Source: an uncultured beta proteobacterium (GTDB taxonomy: Bacteria; Pseudomonadota; Gammaproteobacteria; Burkholderiales; Burkholderiaceae_C). Taken from it: DNA of 64,000 nt. The notes beneath the pieces were generated by a model. The model had not been told where the DNA came from, searched no databases, and saw nothing but the letters and a program-made list of their open reading frames with translations. The position numbers and the translations under genes are program-made. The stretch spans positions 45,281-109,280 of the forward strand of contig CAIKLM010000122.1 in NCBI GenBank assembly GCA_903828235.1, given 5' to 3'. Positions 7,285 through 63,775 of the stretch are shown here, in pieces. Position 1 is the first letter of the stretch; every line of letters begins with the position of its first letter.

Positions 7285-10200
7285 TCAAAGCGCCTCGGCG
7301 TCCTTGTCGTTCATAAGCGCTTCGGCCGGCTTGCGCCCGAAGAGCCAGAACATCGCGGGCGTGAGGAAGGTGTCGAGCAGCGTCGAGCTGATCAGGCCGG
7401 AGAAGATCACGACGGCCACGGGGTGCAGCACCTCGGTGCCGGGCTGCTCGGCCTCGAACAGCAGCGGGGCCAGCGCGAAGGCCGTGACCAGCGCCGTCAT
7501 CAGCACCGGGCTCAGCCGCTCCAGCGAGCCGCGCATGATCATCTTCTGGTCGAAGTTCTCGCCCTCGAATCGCATCAGGTTGATGTAATGGCTGACCTTG
7601 AGGATGCCATTGCGCACCGAGATGCCAGCCAGCGTGATGAAGCCGACCAGGGCGGCCACTGACAGCGGTTGCCCTGAAAGCCACAGGCCGAGTACCGCGC
7701 CGACCAGGGCGAGCGGGATGTTCACCATGATCAGCGCCGACAGCGCGGCCGACTTGTAGCGGCTGTAGAGCACCACGAACATCAAGGTCAGCGACACGAT
7801 GGACAGCAGGCCGACCAGGCGTGAGGCTTCCTCCTGCGCCTGGAACTGACCGCCCAGCGTGATGAAGTAACCCTCGGGCAGCTTTGTTTCGGCGACCACC
7901 TTGCGGATGTCGGCGACGATCTCCGAGAGCGCGCGCCCGGACGCATTCGCCGACAGCACGATACGCCGCTTGCCGTCGTCGCGGCTGATCTGGTTCGGGC
8001 CGTCACCGTCTTCGATGGTGGCGATCTTCGACAGCGGGATGCGGCCGTTGGGCGTCTCGATCAGGATCTGGCCCAGGCCTTCCACCGAGCGCGCCGATTC
8101 CGGAAGCTTCACCACCAGCGCGAAGCGGCGGCTGCCCTCGACGATCTGGGTGACCTTCTCGCCTTCGACCAGCGCCTGCAATGCCGACAGCACTTGAGGC
8201 GCCGGCACACCGTACTGCGCGGCCGCGGCGTAGTCGATGCGCACCTTGATCTGCGGCGCGAGCACCTGCTTCTCGATCTGCAGGTCGGCAATGCCCGGGA
8301 TGGTGGCCAGCTTTGCGCGCAGCACGTCGGCCTGGCCGCGCAGTGCATCGAGGTCTTCGCCGAAGATCTTGATCGCGATCTGCGATCGCACGCCCGACAG
8401 CATGTGGTCAATGCGGTGCGAGATGGGCTGGCCGATCTCCAATGCGGCCGGAAGATTGACCAGACGCGCACGGATGTCGGCCTTGATCTCGTCCATGCTG
8501 CGCGTCAGTTCCGCCGTGGGCTTCAGGCCCACGTCGAGCTCACTGACGTGCACCCCCTCGGCATGCTCGTCGAGTTCCGCGCGGCCGCTGCGCCGCCCGA
8601 CGTGTGTCACCTCAGGCACCTGCTTGACCAGCACTTCGGCCTGGCGCGCCAGCGCTGACGATTCCGTCAGCGTGACACCGGGGTTCAGGCGCAGGCCGAT
8701 CAGCAGCGTGCCTTCATTGAAGGGCGGCAGGAAGGTCGTCGGAAAGAACGGCACGGCCACCGCAGCAACGAGCACCGCTGCACCTGCAGCGGCCATGGCG
8801 GCCTTGGGCCGATCGAGCACGCCCTGCAGGCTGCTGCGGTAACGCGCCTTCAGCCAGGCCAGGACCTTGGTGTCGCCATGGTCCAGGTTCTTCATCCGCG
8901 GCAGCAGGTAGTAACTCAAGACGGGTGTCACCGTCACCGAGACGATCAGCGAGGCCAGCGTGGACACGATGAAGGCGATGCCCAGCGGCACGAACAGCTT
9001 GCCCTCCAGTCCCGGCAGCGCGAACAGCGGGATGAAGACCAGGACGATGATGACCGTGGCATACAGGATCGCTGACCGCACCTCCATCGTCGCGTGCGCA
9101 ACGATCTCGATCGGATTCAGGCGGCTGTGCGGATGATTGGCGCGGTCCGCCTTCAGCCGTCGCAGCACGTTCTCGACGCCCACCACCGCGTCGTCGACCA
9201 GGCCGCCGATGGCAATGGCCAGTCCGCCGAGCGTCATGGTGTTGATCGACAGCCCGAAATACTTGAAGACCAACGCGGTGATGAAGATCGACACCGGGAT
9301 GGCTGTCAGCGCGATGATGGTCGGCCGCAAGGTCCCGAGGAAGAAGAACAGGATGACCGCCACGAAGATCGACGCGCCGATCAGCTTGCCCTGCAGCGTG
9401 GTGATCGAGGCCTCGATGAAGCTGGCCTGGCGGAAGGTCACGCGCGGTGCCTCCATGCCGGCCGGCAGCGAGGCCTTCAGCCCCACCAGGGCCTCTTCGA
9501 TGGACTGAGTCAGGGCAATCGTGTCGGCAGTCGGCTGCTTCTGAATGCCCAGGATCACGGCCGGTTTGCCTTCGTAGCCTGCGTCGCCGCGCTTGAGCGC
9601 CGCGGCGAAGGTCACCTCGGCGATCTGGCGCATCAGGATCGGTTGCCCATCCTTGGATGTCAGCGCCAGGTTGTTCAGGTCTTCGAGGCGTGAAGTTCGG
9701 CCGAGGTTGCGAATCAGGTACTCGCGCCCGTTCAACTCCAGGAAGCCGCCGGAGGTGTTGGAGGAGTAGCCCTTCAATGCGCCTTCGAGCTGGTCGTGCG
9801 TGATGCCCAGTTCGGCCATGCGCGTCGTGTTCGGCTGCACCTGGAACTGGCGCACTTCACCACCGATCGGGATGACCTGCGCGACGCCGGGCACCGACAG
9901 CAGCCGCGGGCGCAGCACCCAGTCGGCGTACTCGCGAACGGCCATCGCGCTGATCTTGCTCGGATCGACCGGAATGGCGATCTGCATGATCTCGCCCATG
10001 ATCGAGCTGATCGGACCCATGCGCGGCACCACGCCTTCGGCGATGCCTTCTTCCATGGACGACAGCCGCTCCGACACCAGCTGCCGGGCACGGAAGATGT
10101 CGGTGCTCCAGTCGAAGGTGACATAGAGGAAGGACAGGCCGGCCGACGAGGTCGAGCGCACGCTCTCCACGCCGGGCAGACCGTTCATGGTCGTCTCCAG

Positions 10201-56779: not shown

Positions 56780-56912
56780 GATGCGCCCGTCGGACGCTTC
56801 GAACTGCGCGCATTCGTAGGTGGCTATGTGTTCCGACGCGGAGGCCGGGCGAAAACCTGGCAGTGTTCGCCCGTTAGCATTGTTCTTCGCGTGGGACACC
56901 CAGGGAGAAAAA

Positions 56913-59495
56913 ATGAGTCGAGTCCACGAAGAGATAAAGGCCTGGCTGCTGATGCAACAGGACTGGCTACAGGAGGCCGCAGACAGGCTCTTGAACCAGG
57001 GCCGGTTGCACGACCACGACATTGCCGCGGTTGCAGAGCTGCTGAAAACTGAGAAGGGCCAGGCGGTCACCAAGCATCGGGCCTACGCCTCGCTCACCAA
57101 GACGCCCGCGATTCCGGGCGAGCTGCGAATGATGAGCGTCTCGGATGTGCAGGGCATCGAGAACCTGTCGCCGAAGGCACCGCTCGATTTTGGGTCGGGC
57201 AACCTAGTGGTCGTCTATGGGCACAACGGCTCTGGCAAGTCCGGCTACACACGGATCCTAAAGAGAGCCAGCGGCAAGCCGCGTGCAGCGCCCTTAAAGG
57301 CGAACGTCTTTGGGGACGCTCCCGCTGCTCGGCAGTGCAAGCTTGAGTTCAAGGACGGGCAGAACTCGATAGCGTCGGTCTGGAAGGCTGACGACCAGGC
57401 GCTGGACGCGCTTCGAGCAATAGACATTTTCGACAGCGAGGAGGCGCAGCACTACCTGACCAAGGAGAGTTCTGCGGTCTACGTGCCTCCGCTCGTTTTT
57501 ATGTTCGAGCAGCTTGCCGCCGGCTGTGACGGCGTCAAGGAAGCTCTCCACACCGAGCAGGCCAAACTGGTAAGCGGTCTGCCTGCCATGCCTGCTGAGT
57601 TCGCAGCCACCGAGCCGGCTCGCCGCTACGCCGCTCTGCGGCCTGACATGACAGCGGCGGAGGTCGACCAGCTCACGGCGTGGATGCAGGAGCACGCCCA
57701 GCAGCTGACCGACCTGACAGAGCGGCTCAGGGTAGCCGACCCTGCAGCCGTGGCCACCCAGCGCAGAGCCAGGAAGGCACAGGTCCTTCAGATTGCCTTG
57801 GCATTGGGGAAGGGAGAGGCTGCCCTGGGCGAGGCTGGAGTCCAGGCCATTCGAGCGCTGCAGAACGCTGCCAAGGAGAAGAGGCGCGTGGCAACGGAGG
57901 CCGGAAAGGTCAACTCGGCGATCCTTGACGGTGTCGGCCAGCCGACTTGGCACGCGATGTGGAGCGCCGCTCGCGAGTACTCGCAGTTGGCGTACCCGGA
58001 AGGGAGATTCCCGGTCACCGACAAGGCGCGCTGCCTCCTTTGCCATCAAGAGTTACAGCCTGATGCTCAGCAGCGGCTCCAGGACTTCGAGGCCTTTGTT
58101 GAAAGCAAGCTAGAAGCAGAGGCGAAAGCTGCCGAAGAGGCACACGGGAAGGCTGTCGCAGCGTTGCCGACTGTGCCCAACGAAGGACAGTTGACGACTC
58201 AGTGTGCGGCGGCTTCCCTCGAAGAACCCGAGTGGCTCGAGAGCCTGAAAGCGTTCTGGCAGGCCGCCCGCCTAGCCAGTGAAGCGTTATTCGCCAGGGA
58301 GGCGAACAGGCCGGCAGTTCCCGCGCCCGCGGTCGCCGACCTCGTCGCTCGTTTGGAGGCCCGTGCGCAGGCACTGGAGGCAGAAGCGGTGCAGTTGGAT
58401 AAGGACGCCAAACTCTTCGACCGCGCCAAGGCTGCCAAACAAAAGTTGGCGCTCGAAGCGCAGCTATGGGTATCGCAACAGAAGGCCGCTGTCGTGACGG
58501 AGGTCGCACGGCGCAAGGCCTGGAACGACTTTGAGACTTGGAAGGGGCTTGCCAATCCAAGGCGAGTCTCCATCAGGGCCAGCGAGGTCGCCGAGAAAGT
58601 CATCACCGAGAGCTACGTCGGCCGCTTCAATGCGGAGCTTGAGGCCCTCGGAGCCAAGCGAGTTCGCGTCGCGATAGTCAAAACCCGCACCGACAGAGGG
58701 CGGGCCCTGCATCAGCTCAAGCTCACCGGGGTGAAGCGAGGGCAAGAGGAGCCGGCCGGGGTCCTCAGCGAAGGTGAGCGCCGCATCATCTCCCTCGCGG
58801 CGTTCCTCGCTGACGTCACGGGCAAGCCCAACATCGCTCCCTTCGTCTTCGACGACCCCATCTCGTCGCTCGACCAAGACTTCGAGTGGACCGTCGCCAA
58901 GAGGCTCGCTGAGCTGGCGAAGACGCGTCAGGTTCTAGTGTTCACGCACCGCCTGTCCCTCTACGGGGCCCTGGAGGACACGGCACGCAAGAACGGTGAT
59001 AAGTGGCGAGAGAGCAATCTGGTTCAACGCTGCATTGAGACATTCCTGGGAGCAGCCGGGCACCCCGTTGCCCAGGCGGTATGGAACTCGAAGACGGATG
59101 CCGCCAACAACAGCTTGCTTGAGCGGTTGAGGGAAGCCAAGCAGGCTGGTGAAGCAAGCGGCAGTCACATCTACAAGGCCCACGCCCAGGGCATCTGCAC
59201 CGACTTCCGCAAGCTCCTCGAGCGCACGGTCGAAGACGACCTACTGAATACCATCGTCAAGCGGCATCGGCGAAGCGTAACGACGGACGGCAAGCTGATA
59301 GCACTATCGGCAATCACCCATGCTGACTGTGCGTGCCTCGACACCTTGATGACCAAATACTCAAGCTATGAGCATAGCCAGTCGACCGAGACTCCGGCGT
59401 TCATTCCTGACGAGCCAGAGCTCAGAGCAGATATCGAGACGCTGAAGCAATGGAGGACTGACTTCCTGGCGCGACGCAAGGCTGCTCTCGGATAA
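56913..59495 (+). CDS. SMC-like AAA ATPase (AAA_13/RloC-PrrC-like) with CxxC hook; candidate defence protein
   Basis: YGHNGSGKSGY Walker A; RCLLCHQEL mid-coil CxxC; LSEGERRIISLAAFLADV signature; FVFDDPISSLD Walker B; RBS GGGAGAAAAA. Confidence 0.85.
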   Translation: MSRVHEEIKAWLLMQQDWLQEAADRLLNQGRLHDHDIAAVAELLKTEKGQAVTKHRAYASLTKTPAIPGELRMMSVSDVQGIENLSPKAPLDFGSGNLVVVYGHNGSGKSGYTRILKRASGKPRAAPLKANVFGDAPAARQCKLEFKDGQNSIASVWKADDQALDALRAIDIFDSEEAQHYLTKESSAVYVPPLVFMFEQLAAGCDGVKEALHTEQAKLVSGLPAMPAEFAATEPARRYAALRPDMTAAEVDQLTAWMQEHAQQLTDLTERLRVADPAAVATQRRARKAQVLQIALALGKGEAALGEAGVQAIRALQNAAKEKRRVATEAGKVNSAILDGVGQPTWHAMWSAAREYSQLAYPEGRFPVTDKARCLLCHQELQPDAQQRLQDFEAFVESKLEAEAKAAEEAHGKAVAALPTVPNEGQLTTQCAAASLEEPEWLESLKAFWQAARLASEALFAREANRPAVPAPAVADLVARLEARAQALEAEAVQLDKDAKLFDRAKAAKQKLALEAQLWVSQQKAAVVTEVARRKAWNDFETWKGLANPRRVSIRASEVAEKVITESYVGRFNAELEALGAKRVRVAIVKTRTDRGRALHQLKLTGVKRGQEEPAGVLSEGERRIISLAAFLADVTGKPNIAPFVFDDPISSLDQDFEWTVAKRLAELAKTRQVLVFTHRLSLYGALEDTARKNGDKWRESNLVQRCIETFLGAAGHPVAQAVWNSKTDAANNSLLERLREAKQAGEASGSHIYKAHAQGICTDFRKLLERTVEDDLLNTIVKRHRRSVTTDGKLIALSAITHADCACLDTLMTKYSSYEHSQSTETPAFIPDEPELRADIETLKQWRTDFLARRKAALG

Positions 59496-59526
59496 GGCAG
59501 GAACCGATACGGTCGCACCGGATTTC

Positions 59527-59575
59527 GTGCCCTCCTTCTCTCGCCACCGACAATGGTGCCAGCGAAGGAGGGCAC
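59527..59575 (+). promoter_or_regulatory. RBS-sequestering hairpin before HEPN-like gene
   Basis: GTGCCCTCCTTC (59527-59538) pairs perfectly with GAAGGAGGGCAC (59564-59575), 3 nt before ATG. Confidence 0.7.
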
Positions 59576-59577
59576 CT

Positions 59578-61806
59578 ATGGCGGGGGATATCGAACTCTG
59601 GTCGCTCCGGAGGTTCCGGGACGTACCGATAAGGTTCGACTGGTTTGGGAATGTCAGGCGGTCGAACCACACCGGAGCACTGCTGTCGTACCTAACGATG
59701 TCATGCTCGTCGGTCAGCGACGGCGGATCGCCAATCCAATTGCCGAGGCCGCCAGGCAAGCAGCTGCCTTCCGTGGACATCCCCGTCAACTGGTTGGGGT
59801 TGGTCCGTCTGGGGGATGTCTGGAAGGCAGCCAGAAGGGTGGGTTCGGAGACCCTCGAACGAGTGACATTCCAAGGTCTGGTAGTTGACGACACGACCAC
59901 CTCCGACGGGCCGTGCGGCAAGTCATCGTTGCACGCTGACGGTGTTCGCAGGCACGACCTGCCGTTTGAACGGTTCAGGCGCCATGCCGACCACACTTTG
60001 GCCTACCTGGCGCGGGTGTCCGTAGCCCCTGGCTTAGTACTCCTCGTCCCCAGCATGGAGATCATCAGGTTCTACTTCGGCAGCAGCGGAGCGCTGCTCG
60101 GGAACATTTTCTCTGGTGCGTTCGCGAAGGACCACTTGTACACGGTCGCGAGCAAGAACGCCGACGGCGTCGCCAACATCACGTTGGCGAAGAACATTCC
60201 TGCCATGGGAGCAGCGACGGTTGCGCGTATTGCGTTCAACCCAGTGGCCAGAAGGCAGTTCCAGAGCATCGTGAACACCGGTGTCCGTGCCGCTGCGAAC
60301 CGTGAGCCGTGGTATCCGAGGGCGCTCTTCCCCTTTCAGGGGGAAACCGACCTCACCGCTGACGGCGTATGGCTGGAGGGTGCACCCGAACGAGTGTTCC
60401 TGGCACTGCGCCTGGTCTCATGCACCCACCCCTTCCCGTTCACCAAGCTGTACTACAAGGTCGACGCCGAAACGATCGCCAAGCTGATAGGCAGGGAGGC
60501 GAAGCCGCCGAAGCAAGGCGAGGACCAGCGGAAGTCAAGCGACGTATCAGTGCGGCAGGCACCTCAGGACACAGCACTGTCGCCTGCTCTGATTTCACGC
60601 AGGGCGGAAGTCGATCCGGACCCTTTCCCAGACCTGCTTGGCAAGCAGGTGTTGCGTCGCAAGGACGACGCACCGTCGCGAGCGCTGAGTCAACCGAAGC
60701 CTTCGGGTGGGGGTGCGGAGGCGAGCAGCGTGGCCACGGGCCCGAACAAAGATGGCGCCAGCCGCCCGGTTGAGGCATCCGAAATGGCCAGTGAGCCAAG
60801 CGCCGAGGTAGAGGAACCAATTGCGCTCCGAAGACTGCGAGATGCATCTGGGTCGACTGCCCCCGGGCTTGTCATCCGGGCATGTGCCCCGCTTCCCACC
60901 ACGCGCTCCTCAACTCGCATTGAACTCACGGCGGACGACGGACTGATCGTCGGGGTTTGGGCGTCGATGTTGACATTCCAGCCAGAGGCTGCTGACGCGA
61001 AGTCACTTCTCGTGTTGGCCGTGGAGGATCGACCCTACGACAACAGCCCGGACGTGGTTGCCTTCGACCTGTGGCAGAAGCCCAAGATCAAGCCCGCCCT
61101 GCTGGCATCGATGGCTCGGGTGTTCGTGACTCACGGCGAAGACCGAGACCACATAGCGAACGAACACAGCCTAATCGGGAGCTGGTCCTCGCAGTGCTTC
61201 GGCAATGGCGGCGAGGCTGGGGTCCTGCAGGAGTTACTTCAGCACGTTGCGTTCGTCGAGTGGGGAACGATCGACGGGCCATCGGCGGCTGACCCGCCTC
61301 CGGTAAAGGTGACGCCAATGCAGGCTTCGGCCACAACGTCCACCGAACGCGCAGCACTGTTCGTCCGGATGTTCGGGCACTTTGAAGAGGCACTGAACCG
61401 AATCAATCGGCGCAAGGAGGTTCGTGCCGACCTAGAAGGAGAGGAGCGCCGGTCAGAACCCGACTGGTGGGCCCTCGCGAAGCATGCTGCCGCCGTTCTG
61501 GCGCAGGATGACGGGGATGACCTCGGTGCTGCAGTCGATTGCCTATGCAGCTGGTTCGATGAAGGCGGTGACCTTGGCTATGGAGGCGCCTTTGCCGGAG
61601 CAATGGTCGGCTCACATCCTATACAGCGGGCATTCATGGCAATGCGACGCCTGAGAAATGCTGTTTCTCACCGTCAGAGGGGTGTTGCCAGCGGCCTCGC
61701 CGATTCAGATGGGGAGGCTGTAGCCGCTGCTCTGCTGCTGCTCCGCAGATACCTAGACCACGACCATAGCTTCCTTGTTGAGTATGAGGAGACGACGGCT
61801 ATCTGA
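59578..61806 (+). CDS. Large uncharacterised protein with C-terminal HEPN-like RNxxxH motif; candidate defence protein
   Basis: 743 codons; AFMAMRRLRNAVSHRQRG near C-terminus; AAGGAGGG RBS. Confidence 0.75.
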   Translation: MAGDIELWSLRRFRDVPIRFDWFGNVRRSNHTGALLSYLTMSCSSVSDGGSPIQLPRPPGKQLPSVDIPVNWLGLVRLGDVWKAARRVGSETLERVTFQGLVVDDTTTSDGPCGKSSLHADGVRRHDLPFERFRRHADHTLAYLARVSVAPGLVLLVPSMEIIRFYFGSSGALLGNIFSGAFAKDHLYTVASKNADGVANITLAKNIPAMGAATVARIAFNPVARRQFQSIVNTGVRAAANREPWYPRALFPFQGETDLTADGVWLEGAPERVFLALRLVSCTHPFPFTKLYYKVDAETIAKLIGREAKPPKQGEDQRKSSDVSVRQAPQDTALSPALISRRAEVDPDPFPDLLGKQVLRRKDDAPSRALSQPKPSGGGAEASSVATGPNKDGASRPVEASEMASEPSAEVEEPIALRRLRDASGSTAPGLVIRACAPLPTTRSSTRIELTADDGLIVGVWASMLTFQPEAADAKSLLVLAVEDRPYDNSPDVVAFDLWQKPKIKPALLASMARVFVTHGEDRDHIANEHSLIGSWSSQCFGNGGEAGVLQELLQHVAFVEWGTIDGPSAADPPPVKVTPMQASATTSTERAALFVRMFGHFEEALNRINRRKEVRADLEGEERRSEPDWWALAKHAAAVLAQDDGDDLGAAVDCLCSWFDEGGDLGYGGAFAGAMVGSHPIQRAFMAMRRLRNAVSHRQRGVASGLADSDGEAVAAALLLLRRYLDHDHSFLVEYEETTAI

Positions 61807-61808
61807 GG

Positions 61809-62171
61809 TCATGGCGACGCCTTCTTCTTGACGGATTTCTTGGCGGGCTTAGCCGGCGATCTGGCAGAACCGCTCTTCGCGGCAGAGTTCCGCGCCGACT
61901 TGTCCAGCGGCTGGTGGAACAGCGTGACGGCCATCGAGCGGACCTTGAAGTCAGTTCCAGAACCTGTGAGCTTGTGGGTCGAATAGAAGGCGAGCTTGTT
62001 CTTGCCGCAATCGGCGCATTGATAGCCGTCCGTGGTCAATTGGATGCGCCAGCCACTCAGCCTGCTGTGGGCATTGGCAGTCTTCACGAGGTAGAAGAGT
62101 AGGCCGCCTTGGTCGTGGGCGTACCTGTTCGCGAGTCGCGGGCGTTCCTTCGCCCCCGGCCTTCTCAGCAC
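61809..62171 (-). CDS. Small basic protein with CxxC motif, convergent with HEPN-like gene
   Basis: IQLTTDGYQCADCGKNKLAFYSTH; Lys-rich tail; start uncertain. Confidence 0.45.
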   Translation of the reverse strand: MLRRPGAKERPRLANRYAHDQGGLLFYLVKTANAHSRLSGWRIQLTTDGYQCADCGKNKLAFYSTHKLTGSGTDFKVRSMAVTLFHQPLDKSARNSAAKSGSARSPAKPAKKSVKKKASP

Positions 62172-62522
62172 TCATGTCGCTCCCTGGTGGTCTTTGTTGA
62201 TTGCTGCGGCGCATGGTAGCCCGCAGAAATAGGCGATCGATTTGGGGTGAGCCCGATTTGGTTGCACCGAAATCAGCCTCAGAGCAGATCGTCAACACAT
62301 GCTCAGGATGTGCCGCCGATTCGAAGCGGTGCCCGGCCTGCGGGCTGGTTGTCGCGAGCGCCGGTAGCGTTGAGCACGCCCAGTTTCGGAGCGTCGCACC
62401 GCCTATATGTGTGCATCAAGGTGCCGTCGGACGAGGGGACGATGGAAACAGGTCTGCGGAAAAATTGTTAGTAGCTGCTACCCCGGAAGGCCACTAAAAA
62501 CCTGCTACCTGCTTAGTCAGGC

Positions 62523-62567
62523 ATTCTCATAAGACTTCATTCTCATTGAAGTTTGTATTGTTCTCAC
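62523..62567. repeat. Three ATTCTCAT-like motifs at island edge
   Basis: ATTCTCAT 62523-62530, ATTCTCAT 62539-62546, GTTCTCAC 62560-62567. Confidence 0.6.
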
Positions 62568-62570
62568 TTA

Positions 62571-63461
62571 TCAACGTACGCCCCAGCCGCCGCCCACCAG
62601 GGCCACGGCGCTGGCGGAGTGGTGCGGGCTGCGGAACGGACGCTGGCCGAAGGCGACCGCATCGGTGCCCGCACGCGACAGGCCGCGCAGCGCGGCGCTT
62701 TGCAAGGCTTCCTCGTCGCTCATGGGGGGCAGCAGGGACGGCAGGCGCTGCGCCAGCATGGACTTGCCGGTGCCCGGGGGCCCGATCAACAGCAGGCTGT
62801 GCTGGCCCGCCGCGGCGATCTCCAGCGCCCGGCGCGCTGCGGCTTGGCCGCGCACCTCCACCAGGTCCGGGCCGTCGTCCTGGGCTTGGGCGGGGCGTTG
62901 CGGCACCGCTCGGGGCAGTTCTACGCCGGGAGCGTCCTCCTGGCTGGGCATCAAGGTCTGCGCCACTTCCAGCAGGTGCGTCGCCTGCCGCACCTCCAGG
63001 CCCTGCACCAGCGCGGCCTCGGCGGCGCTGGCCGCGGGCAGCACCAGGGTGCGGGTGGTCTGCTCGCGCCGCGCCGCCAGGGCCAGGGCCAGGGCGCCCC
63101 GCACCGGTTGCAGAGCGCCGGCCAGCGAGAGTTCGCCCGCCACCTCCAGCCCCTGCAGCCGGGCCGGGTCGATCACCCCACTGGCGGCCAGGATGCCCAG
63201 CGCGCTGGGCAGATCGCAGCGGCCGGATTCCTTGGGCAGGTCGGCCGGCGCCAGATTCACGGTCACTCGCTGGTTGTGCGGAAAGGCGAAGCCGCTCTCC
63301 GACAGGGCTGCCCGCACACGCTCGCGCGCTTCCTTCACTTCCGTGTCAGCCAGGCCCACCAGGGTGAAGCTGGGCAGGCCGTTGGCCAGATGCACCTCCA
63401 CGCGCACGGCGGGCGCCTCCAGGCCGTCCAGGGCACGGCTCATCACCACGGCAAGCGTCAT
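62571..63461 (-). pseudogene. comM: comM/yifB Mg-chelatase-like ATPase truncated by insertion
   Basis: MTLAVVMSRALDGLEAPAVRVEVHLANGLPSF...LLLIGPPGTGKSMLAQRLP...HHSASAVALVGGG then WGVR*; Walker B half missing. Confidence 0.88.
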
Positions 63462-63775
63462 CTCGGTGTCCTTGGCGTGCAGGCGGACCTGCGGGAAAGG
63501 CCGCGCGGCGAGAGCCTTGCGCGGCGTCAGGGATTCTGTGAAGCCCTGCCGCGTTTGTATGCACCCCTTTGGCGCCCCTCTTTGGTGCGCACCTTTGTGG
63601 GGCACTCCGATGGGGGTGTTGGCGCTTCAAAGCGGGGCGGGTGGGTGCGCTGTCCTGGCTTTTCTCTCCTGTTCCGGGCTCTTGCGGCCCCGTCGTGCCT
63701 GGCGTCGAGGTGGGACTCAAGGCTGGCACGGAAGGTGCAGACAGCTGGTCAACCATTCATCACCAAGGAGTTCCC

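Follow-up and report, generated by a model that had tools for sequence, protein, structure and literature searches.

How is a gene translated when its ribosome-binding site lies inside a perfect hairpin, and what does that gene encode? Both questions are raised by one short leader in a 64-kb window, the whole stretch of 64,000 nucleotides analysed here. Two arms, GTGCCCTCCTTC (59527..59538, + strand) and GAAGGAGGGCAC (59564..59575, +), can be read directly as exact complements, forming a 12-bp stem around a 25-nt loop (59539..59563, +) whose sequence and fold give inner CACC/GGTG pairs. The left arm begins 32 nt past the stop codon of an upstream ATPase gene and includes CCTCCTT, an anti-Shine–Dalgarno (SD)-like part. 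The right arm holds the SD (AAGGAGG, 59565-59571) and is followed by CT and then by the ATG at 59578, which leaves a spacer of 6 nt. A sequence-only reading had described these arms, their positions, their spacing and the inner pairs just as they are. It had also placed the ribosome-binding site in the right arm and proposed RNA folding as a check: RNAfold pairs that entire arm, SD included, in the stem when 59500-59620 is folded (-59.4 kcal/mol, z -4.0, 0/200 shuffles equally stable). The hairpin covers the ribosome-binding site of the downstream gene, probably a tnsE-type gene as argued below. Taken by itself, the 53-nt hairpin reaches -32.8 kcal/mol at 37 C through 12 unbroken Watson-Crick pairs, and the stability of the stem is high for both strands. 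By prediction, the leader combines a buried SD with a high opening cost, as an SD-sequestering control element would.

Is this one of the known kinds of hairpin? An intrinsic terminator is ruled out, as the G+C-rich stem has no U-tract after it and a terminator and sigma-70 scan of 59300-59800 gave no match; the sequence-only reading had likewise held that this is not a typical terminator. The stem is too strong, with that many unbroken pairs and that energy at 37 C, for an RNA thermometer. A known riboswitch or other Rfam cis-regulatory element is ruled out by the lack of any family-model match, the sole hit of the Rfam search being a sub-threshold chance match elsewhere. A REP/BIME-type intergenic repeat would be present in many copies, whereas the 4.5 Mb genome has the arms a single time; no copy of the hairpin was found among viral contigs. 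A longer protein starting at the GTG at 59527, in the left arm, was also rejected: that start has no SD and the relatives of the protein begin near the ATG at 59578. The promoter scan detected none within the leader, the GACAAT at 59549-59554 in the loop being a weak -10 candidate at best; there is no antisense promoter candidate either, and no conserved motif.

The gene behind the hairpin and the element that carries it

The gene at 59578..61806 (+) encodes 742 aa, and the sequence-only reading had taken it for a HEPN effector. Pfam finds no HEPN domain; the first ~400 residues belong instead to a family of Tn7-like elements, and the gene is probably a remote tnsE-type gene, encoding a target selector in residues 1-~500 that is followed by an additional C-terminal tail (~541-742). 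What supports this assignment? Sequence searches of Pfam, NCBIfam, PADLOC and the PDB gave no match for the product. Its first ~400 residues match proteins, mostly ~500-640 aa long, from 10 further genomes of the order and from 30 loci of the genome collection. These relatives either neighbour tniQ or lie terminally in Tn7-like elements. At loci L050, L066 and L075 the relative is preceded by ORFs sized like transposase, tniB and tniQ genes, and at L055 it converges on tniQ (Pfam was checked for the L050 and L055 neighbours and for the L066 tniQ). Two relatives, L011 and L012, abut a broken comM, and others abut the end of lipA, recognised by reading the sequence. At the profile level, hhalign of a Tn7-type TnsE (L079, a TnsE by its PDB match to 5d17, E 7e-22) against the family scored 33.3 over 125 columns, while none of 150 decoys and 50 shuffles exceeded 25.6, so that the similarity to TnsE exceeds chance. 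An AlphaFold model of the L055 relative (pLDDT 82) had as its top 7 of 350,542 PDB chains TnsE C-terminal domains, each of them a weak match (E 0.23-0.79). The window protein's own model, low in confidence in its C-terminal part, gave nothing significant in Foldseek and no TnsE match. Pfam on 25 family members returned no TnsE_C match and nothing useful, and neither did a PDB sequence search with the family profile; the homology to TnsE therefore rests on hhalign, structure and synteny. The tnsE-type call draws on the profile match, the synteny with tniQ, the structural matches and the remote TnsEs published for Tn6022, which lie near the far end of comM-inserted elements (Faure et al., PMC10293859). 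Compared with the TnsE of Tn7 (PDB 5d16, 5d17, 9d5l), which provides the best structural matches of the family member's model and aligns with the family in an N-terminal segment at the profile level, the window protein has no Pfam TnsE_C match, very low pairwise similarity and a longer C-terminus.

The surroundings fit a Tn7-like element. It spans ~90 kb (contig ~17951-107854) and includes window positions 1-62574. It splits comM: the 5' half (62575..63605, -) stops at alien sequence and the 3' half is found on the same contig at ~17.3 kb. Directly after the 3' half come tnsA, tniA/tnsB, tniB/tnsC and tniQ (L039), at the far end from the tnsE-type gene, so that TnsA, TnsB, TnsC and TniQ are all represented. 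In tblastn with the tni genes of L050 and L055, whose Pfam identities gave the L039 genes their names, identities were 45, 39 and 37%, with 31% for TnsA. A GCGTACG (62575..62581), which contains the target-site duplication, is present at both junctions, and TGAGAA-type repeats, candidate transposase sites, are found at both element ends, one in the terminal part at 62480..62574 and the other outside the window at contig ~17951. The cargo includes resistance genes for copper and other metals, defence candidates, a umuDC-like pair and an H-NS-like gene. A 120-aa ORF (61809..62171, -) that resembles phrog_9664, of unknown function, separates the tnsE-type gene from the end of the element. The layout resembles that of Tn6022-type elements in its comM insertion, its TnsA/B/C and TniQ, and its remote TnsE far from this core and near the other end (PMC10293859). 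It differs in that the tnsE-type gene is on the same strand as tnsABC/tniQ and carries the extra C-terminal tail, in that ~85 kb of other genes separate tniQ from the tnsE-type gene, and in that no TnsF gene was recognised, without a profile search, directly after tniQ. A second comM-like stretch, 67% identical, lies at a contig end of the same genome (C17:9-818) and is either an extra copy or contamination.

Is the upstream gene a partner of the tnsE-type gene, as the sequence-only reading had proposed for its effector? It encodes an AAA_13-type ATPase of 891 aa (56820..59495, +; PADLOC PDC-S06, PDLC04893), a candidate defence ATPase carried as cargo, and its stop codon ends 82 nt ahead of the ATG at 59578. 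The partnership is not borne out. Homologues of the ATPase were found on 265 plasmid records, usually with no tnsE-type gene, and none in the annotated neighbourhoods read was followed by an annotated tnsE-type relative; conversely, none of the tnsE-type relatives checked has an AAA homologue beside it. The pair looks like cargo adjoining a core gene and not like a two-gene system.

Conservation and rarity of the stem

To which of the two genes does the leader belong, and is its stem kept? The closest relative (L094) is 40% identical. Its leader aligns with the window leader (59518..59577, +, 60 nt) over ~60 nt, a result matched by only 2/2000 shuffles and by 0.03% of other 60-mers in L094. 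On this alignment the leader probably came with the tnsE-type gene and is not part of the AAA cargo. The alignment contains 2-nt gaps, so the leader is probably non-coding. Upstream of the L094 leader, ~8140-8205 reads by eye like the 3' end of a group II intron (domain V). The stem itself is not shared. The SD arm alone is kept in L094; in a column-by-column comparison, most of the pairs are lost on the left-arm side and nothing compensates for them. SD stems are only 4-7 bp in 31 of the 32 relatives scored, L094 being one of the 32. A stem not conserved in homologous loci was one of the outcomes that the sequence-only reading had said would refute it, and across these loci, all at most 40% identical, neither conservation nor covariation of the stem was found. 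Closer orthologues in which covariation could show were sought in plasmids, phages, E. coli genomes and viral contigs, in a genome-contig scan, and across 300 order-level and 401 family-level genomes, a set that included five from the same genus; none turned up, and the best identity stayed at 40%.

The relatives do tend towards weak SDs. An SD of at least 4 nt precedes 9/32 of them against 119/211 control ORFs from the same loci, a set that includes some spurious ORFs (p 0.004). This makes the starts of the family (relatives L042-L078) significantly SD-poor against the other ORFs of their loci. A remote relative on the comM side, L042, has a separate 9-bp stem, independent of that in the window: TACCTTCCT/AGGAAGGTA at ~9130-9167, which covers SD and start. 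Its loop holds a TGCGAA motif, probably from the transposon end.

How surprising, then, is a 12-bp stem at this place? It is the sole exact inverted repeat of at least 12 bp (loop 3-60) in the window, and dinucleotide-based random sequences lead one to expect 0.7 per window. The mere existence of the stem is thus unsurprising, and what surprises is its position. In leader-sized windows of 85 nt, a stem of at least 12 bp that reaches into the final 20 nt arose at 25/20,000 random positions, and by the same criterion at 2/477 control ORF starts, the 59578 start counted among them. The chance of such a stem is ~0.1% per start, which over an estimated ~60 genes in the window would come to a few percent to 10%. 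Opening SD and AUG at 59578 costs 18.7 kcal/mol, the highest of 18 window starts tested (the others need 4.9-15.1 kcal/mol), a value reached at 3/400 random positions. Some 53-nt windows in the surrounding GC-rich DNA fold more strongly than the hairpin. The evidence of selection on the stem is suggestive, not compelling.

A possible brake on translation and its rivals

How could such a leader work? The computed cost of opening depends on where the RNA begins. It is about 18-21 kcal/mol when the 5' end lies at 59527 or before, 13-15 for ends between 59530 and 59546, and 4-5 from 59560. SD and AUG are thus computed to be locked, at a cost of about 19-20 kcal/mol, on any RNA that carries both arms, as in read-through from the AAA gene. 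Tentatively, at somewhat less than even confidence, we read the hairpin as a brake acting in cis on the tnsE-type gene, in whose leader it lies, within this ~90-kb Tn7-like element. Translation would be near off on both-arm RNAs, such as read-through from the AAA cargo gene, and could proceed from RNAs that lack the left arm, started or cut inside the loop, or alternatively for a brief time before the stem forms. The likely benefit would be low TnsE levels, shielded from the transcription of the cargo. Since the scan found no internal promoter, the step of release is an inference only. On the folding model, translational silencing by the stem is plausible. The sequence-only reading had argued that translation is gated; the predicted sequestration of the SD and the poor translation predicted for both-arm RNAs are in its favour, whereas nothing points to the release by phage, RNA or protein that it had added. 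If the stem does work in this way, a simple cis element would keep the transcription of tens of kilobases of cargo apart from a target-selector gene.

The SD-poor relatives and the independent stem in L042 suggest a family habit of low translation, and the reading favoured here is that this habit is achieved by hiding a strong SD. As the relatives do not share it, the hairpin is probably a one-off brake on translation, or possibly chance. Against a brake stand the lack of conservation, with the left arm in L094 unpaired and uncompensated, and the absence of a detectable promoter in the leader. A further objection comes from the same element. A second stem that buries an SD, 11 bp long (CTCCTGAAGTC/GACTTCAGGAG, L040:8652-8787, contig ~43951-44086), lies a short way to the left of the window. 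It precedes an outer-membrane efflux gene that belongs to a cus-type copper operon (contig 44062, L040:8763) and whose start costs 16.7 kcal/mol to open. Stems that bury an SD are therefore not specific to tnsE-type or transposition genes, and two of them in one element fit either a general habit of its DNA or chance.

Mobile elements offer precedents for a brake of this kind. In IS10 and IS50, transcripts from outside carry an upstream arm that hides the SD, and only an internal promoter yields translatable mRNA. The likeness is that an upstream arm on read-through RNA would also hide the SD of the window gene; the differences are that those are transposase genes in insertion sequences, whereas the scan of this leader gave no internal promoter and the gene, a probable tnsE, sits at one end of a 90-kb element. 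The nearest documented parallel appears to be ISPpu9, in which a structured 5'-UTR of the transposase mRNA blocks the ribosome-binding site and lowers translation, with an antisense sRNA as the proposed means of opening it (PMC8450116). It shares with the window a leader RNA structure that hides the ribosome-binding site of a mobile-element gene, and differs in that it involves the transposase's own long 5'-UTR and an sRNA, against a short stem, a probable target selector and no known sRNA. A limited literature search found no published account of how tnsE expression is controlled in such elements.

Is the stem simply an accident? It is quite possible that the left arm became complementary to a strong SD by drift, the DNA being GC-rich, and that the stem has no selected function, in which case it may still lower TnsE output, and chance is a serious rival to the brake. 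The 0.7 repeats expected per window, the stems met at random leader-sized positions, the single-copy arms and the lack of conservation in distant relatives all agree with it. The low chance per start speaks against it, as do the exact cover of the SD, the extra inner pairing and an opening cost that tops the 18 starts.

Might the stem instead belong to the end of the AAA transcript? An unlikely alternative is a 3'-end element of that RNA (a terminator lacking a U-tract, an RNase III or RNase E site, or a stabilising hairpin) that happens to overlap the next SD. The stem's start so soon beyond the AAA stop codon, its stability on both strands and a comparable intercistronic stem between two copper genes of the same element are in keeping with this. 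The missing U-tract and terminator match are not, and the leader is alignable with that of a relative with no AAA gene upstream, so that it seems to belong to the tnsE-type gene.

Could the lock also be a switch? In an extended version, which we regard as improbable, the transposon locks its plasmid-targeting selector TnsE on all cargo read-through RNA, and only a short transcript or a signal such as plasmid entry frees the SD; were it true, the choice of target, chromosome (comM) or plasmids, would be set by RNA. More improbable still is a true switch in which an antisense RNA, a host protein or TnsE opens the stem in response to conjugation, replication stress or a similar signal. A strong SD under a strong stem, among SD-poor relatives, suits a switch better than plain weak translation, and the sRNA proposed for ISPpu9 (PMC8450116) would be a model for it. 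Yet no Rfam family, conserved motif, antisense promoter candidate or conservation speaks for it, and ~19 kcal/mol is a large cost for simple opening by a ligand.

What remains of the HEPN label concerns the tail of the protein. Residues ~541-742 are missing in the relatives, are predicted to be all-helical (pLDDT below 50) and carry RNAVSH, a HEPN-like motif (RNxxxH). They are 29% identical to one small ORF with RVRNNLFHGGK, which stands alone in another genome (L095), and the label comes solely from this motif and this ORF. Pfam found no HEPN in the tail at E up to 1. The original proposal, phage-triggered release of a HEPN effector acting with the AAA ATPase, is barely credible: the ATPase is a defence candidate, the tail has its motif and one AAA homologue has a HEPN_Apea gene in its neighbourhood, but the N-terminal part is a Tn7-element protein, the pairing is unseen in relatives, the HEPN_Apea protein has no evident match to the tail, and the analysis found no evidence linking the hairpin to phage infection. 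What had been taken for a phage-defence effector more probably belongs to the machinery with which a metal-resistance and defence island transposes.
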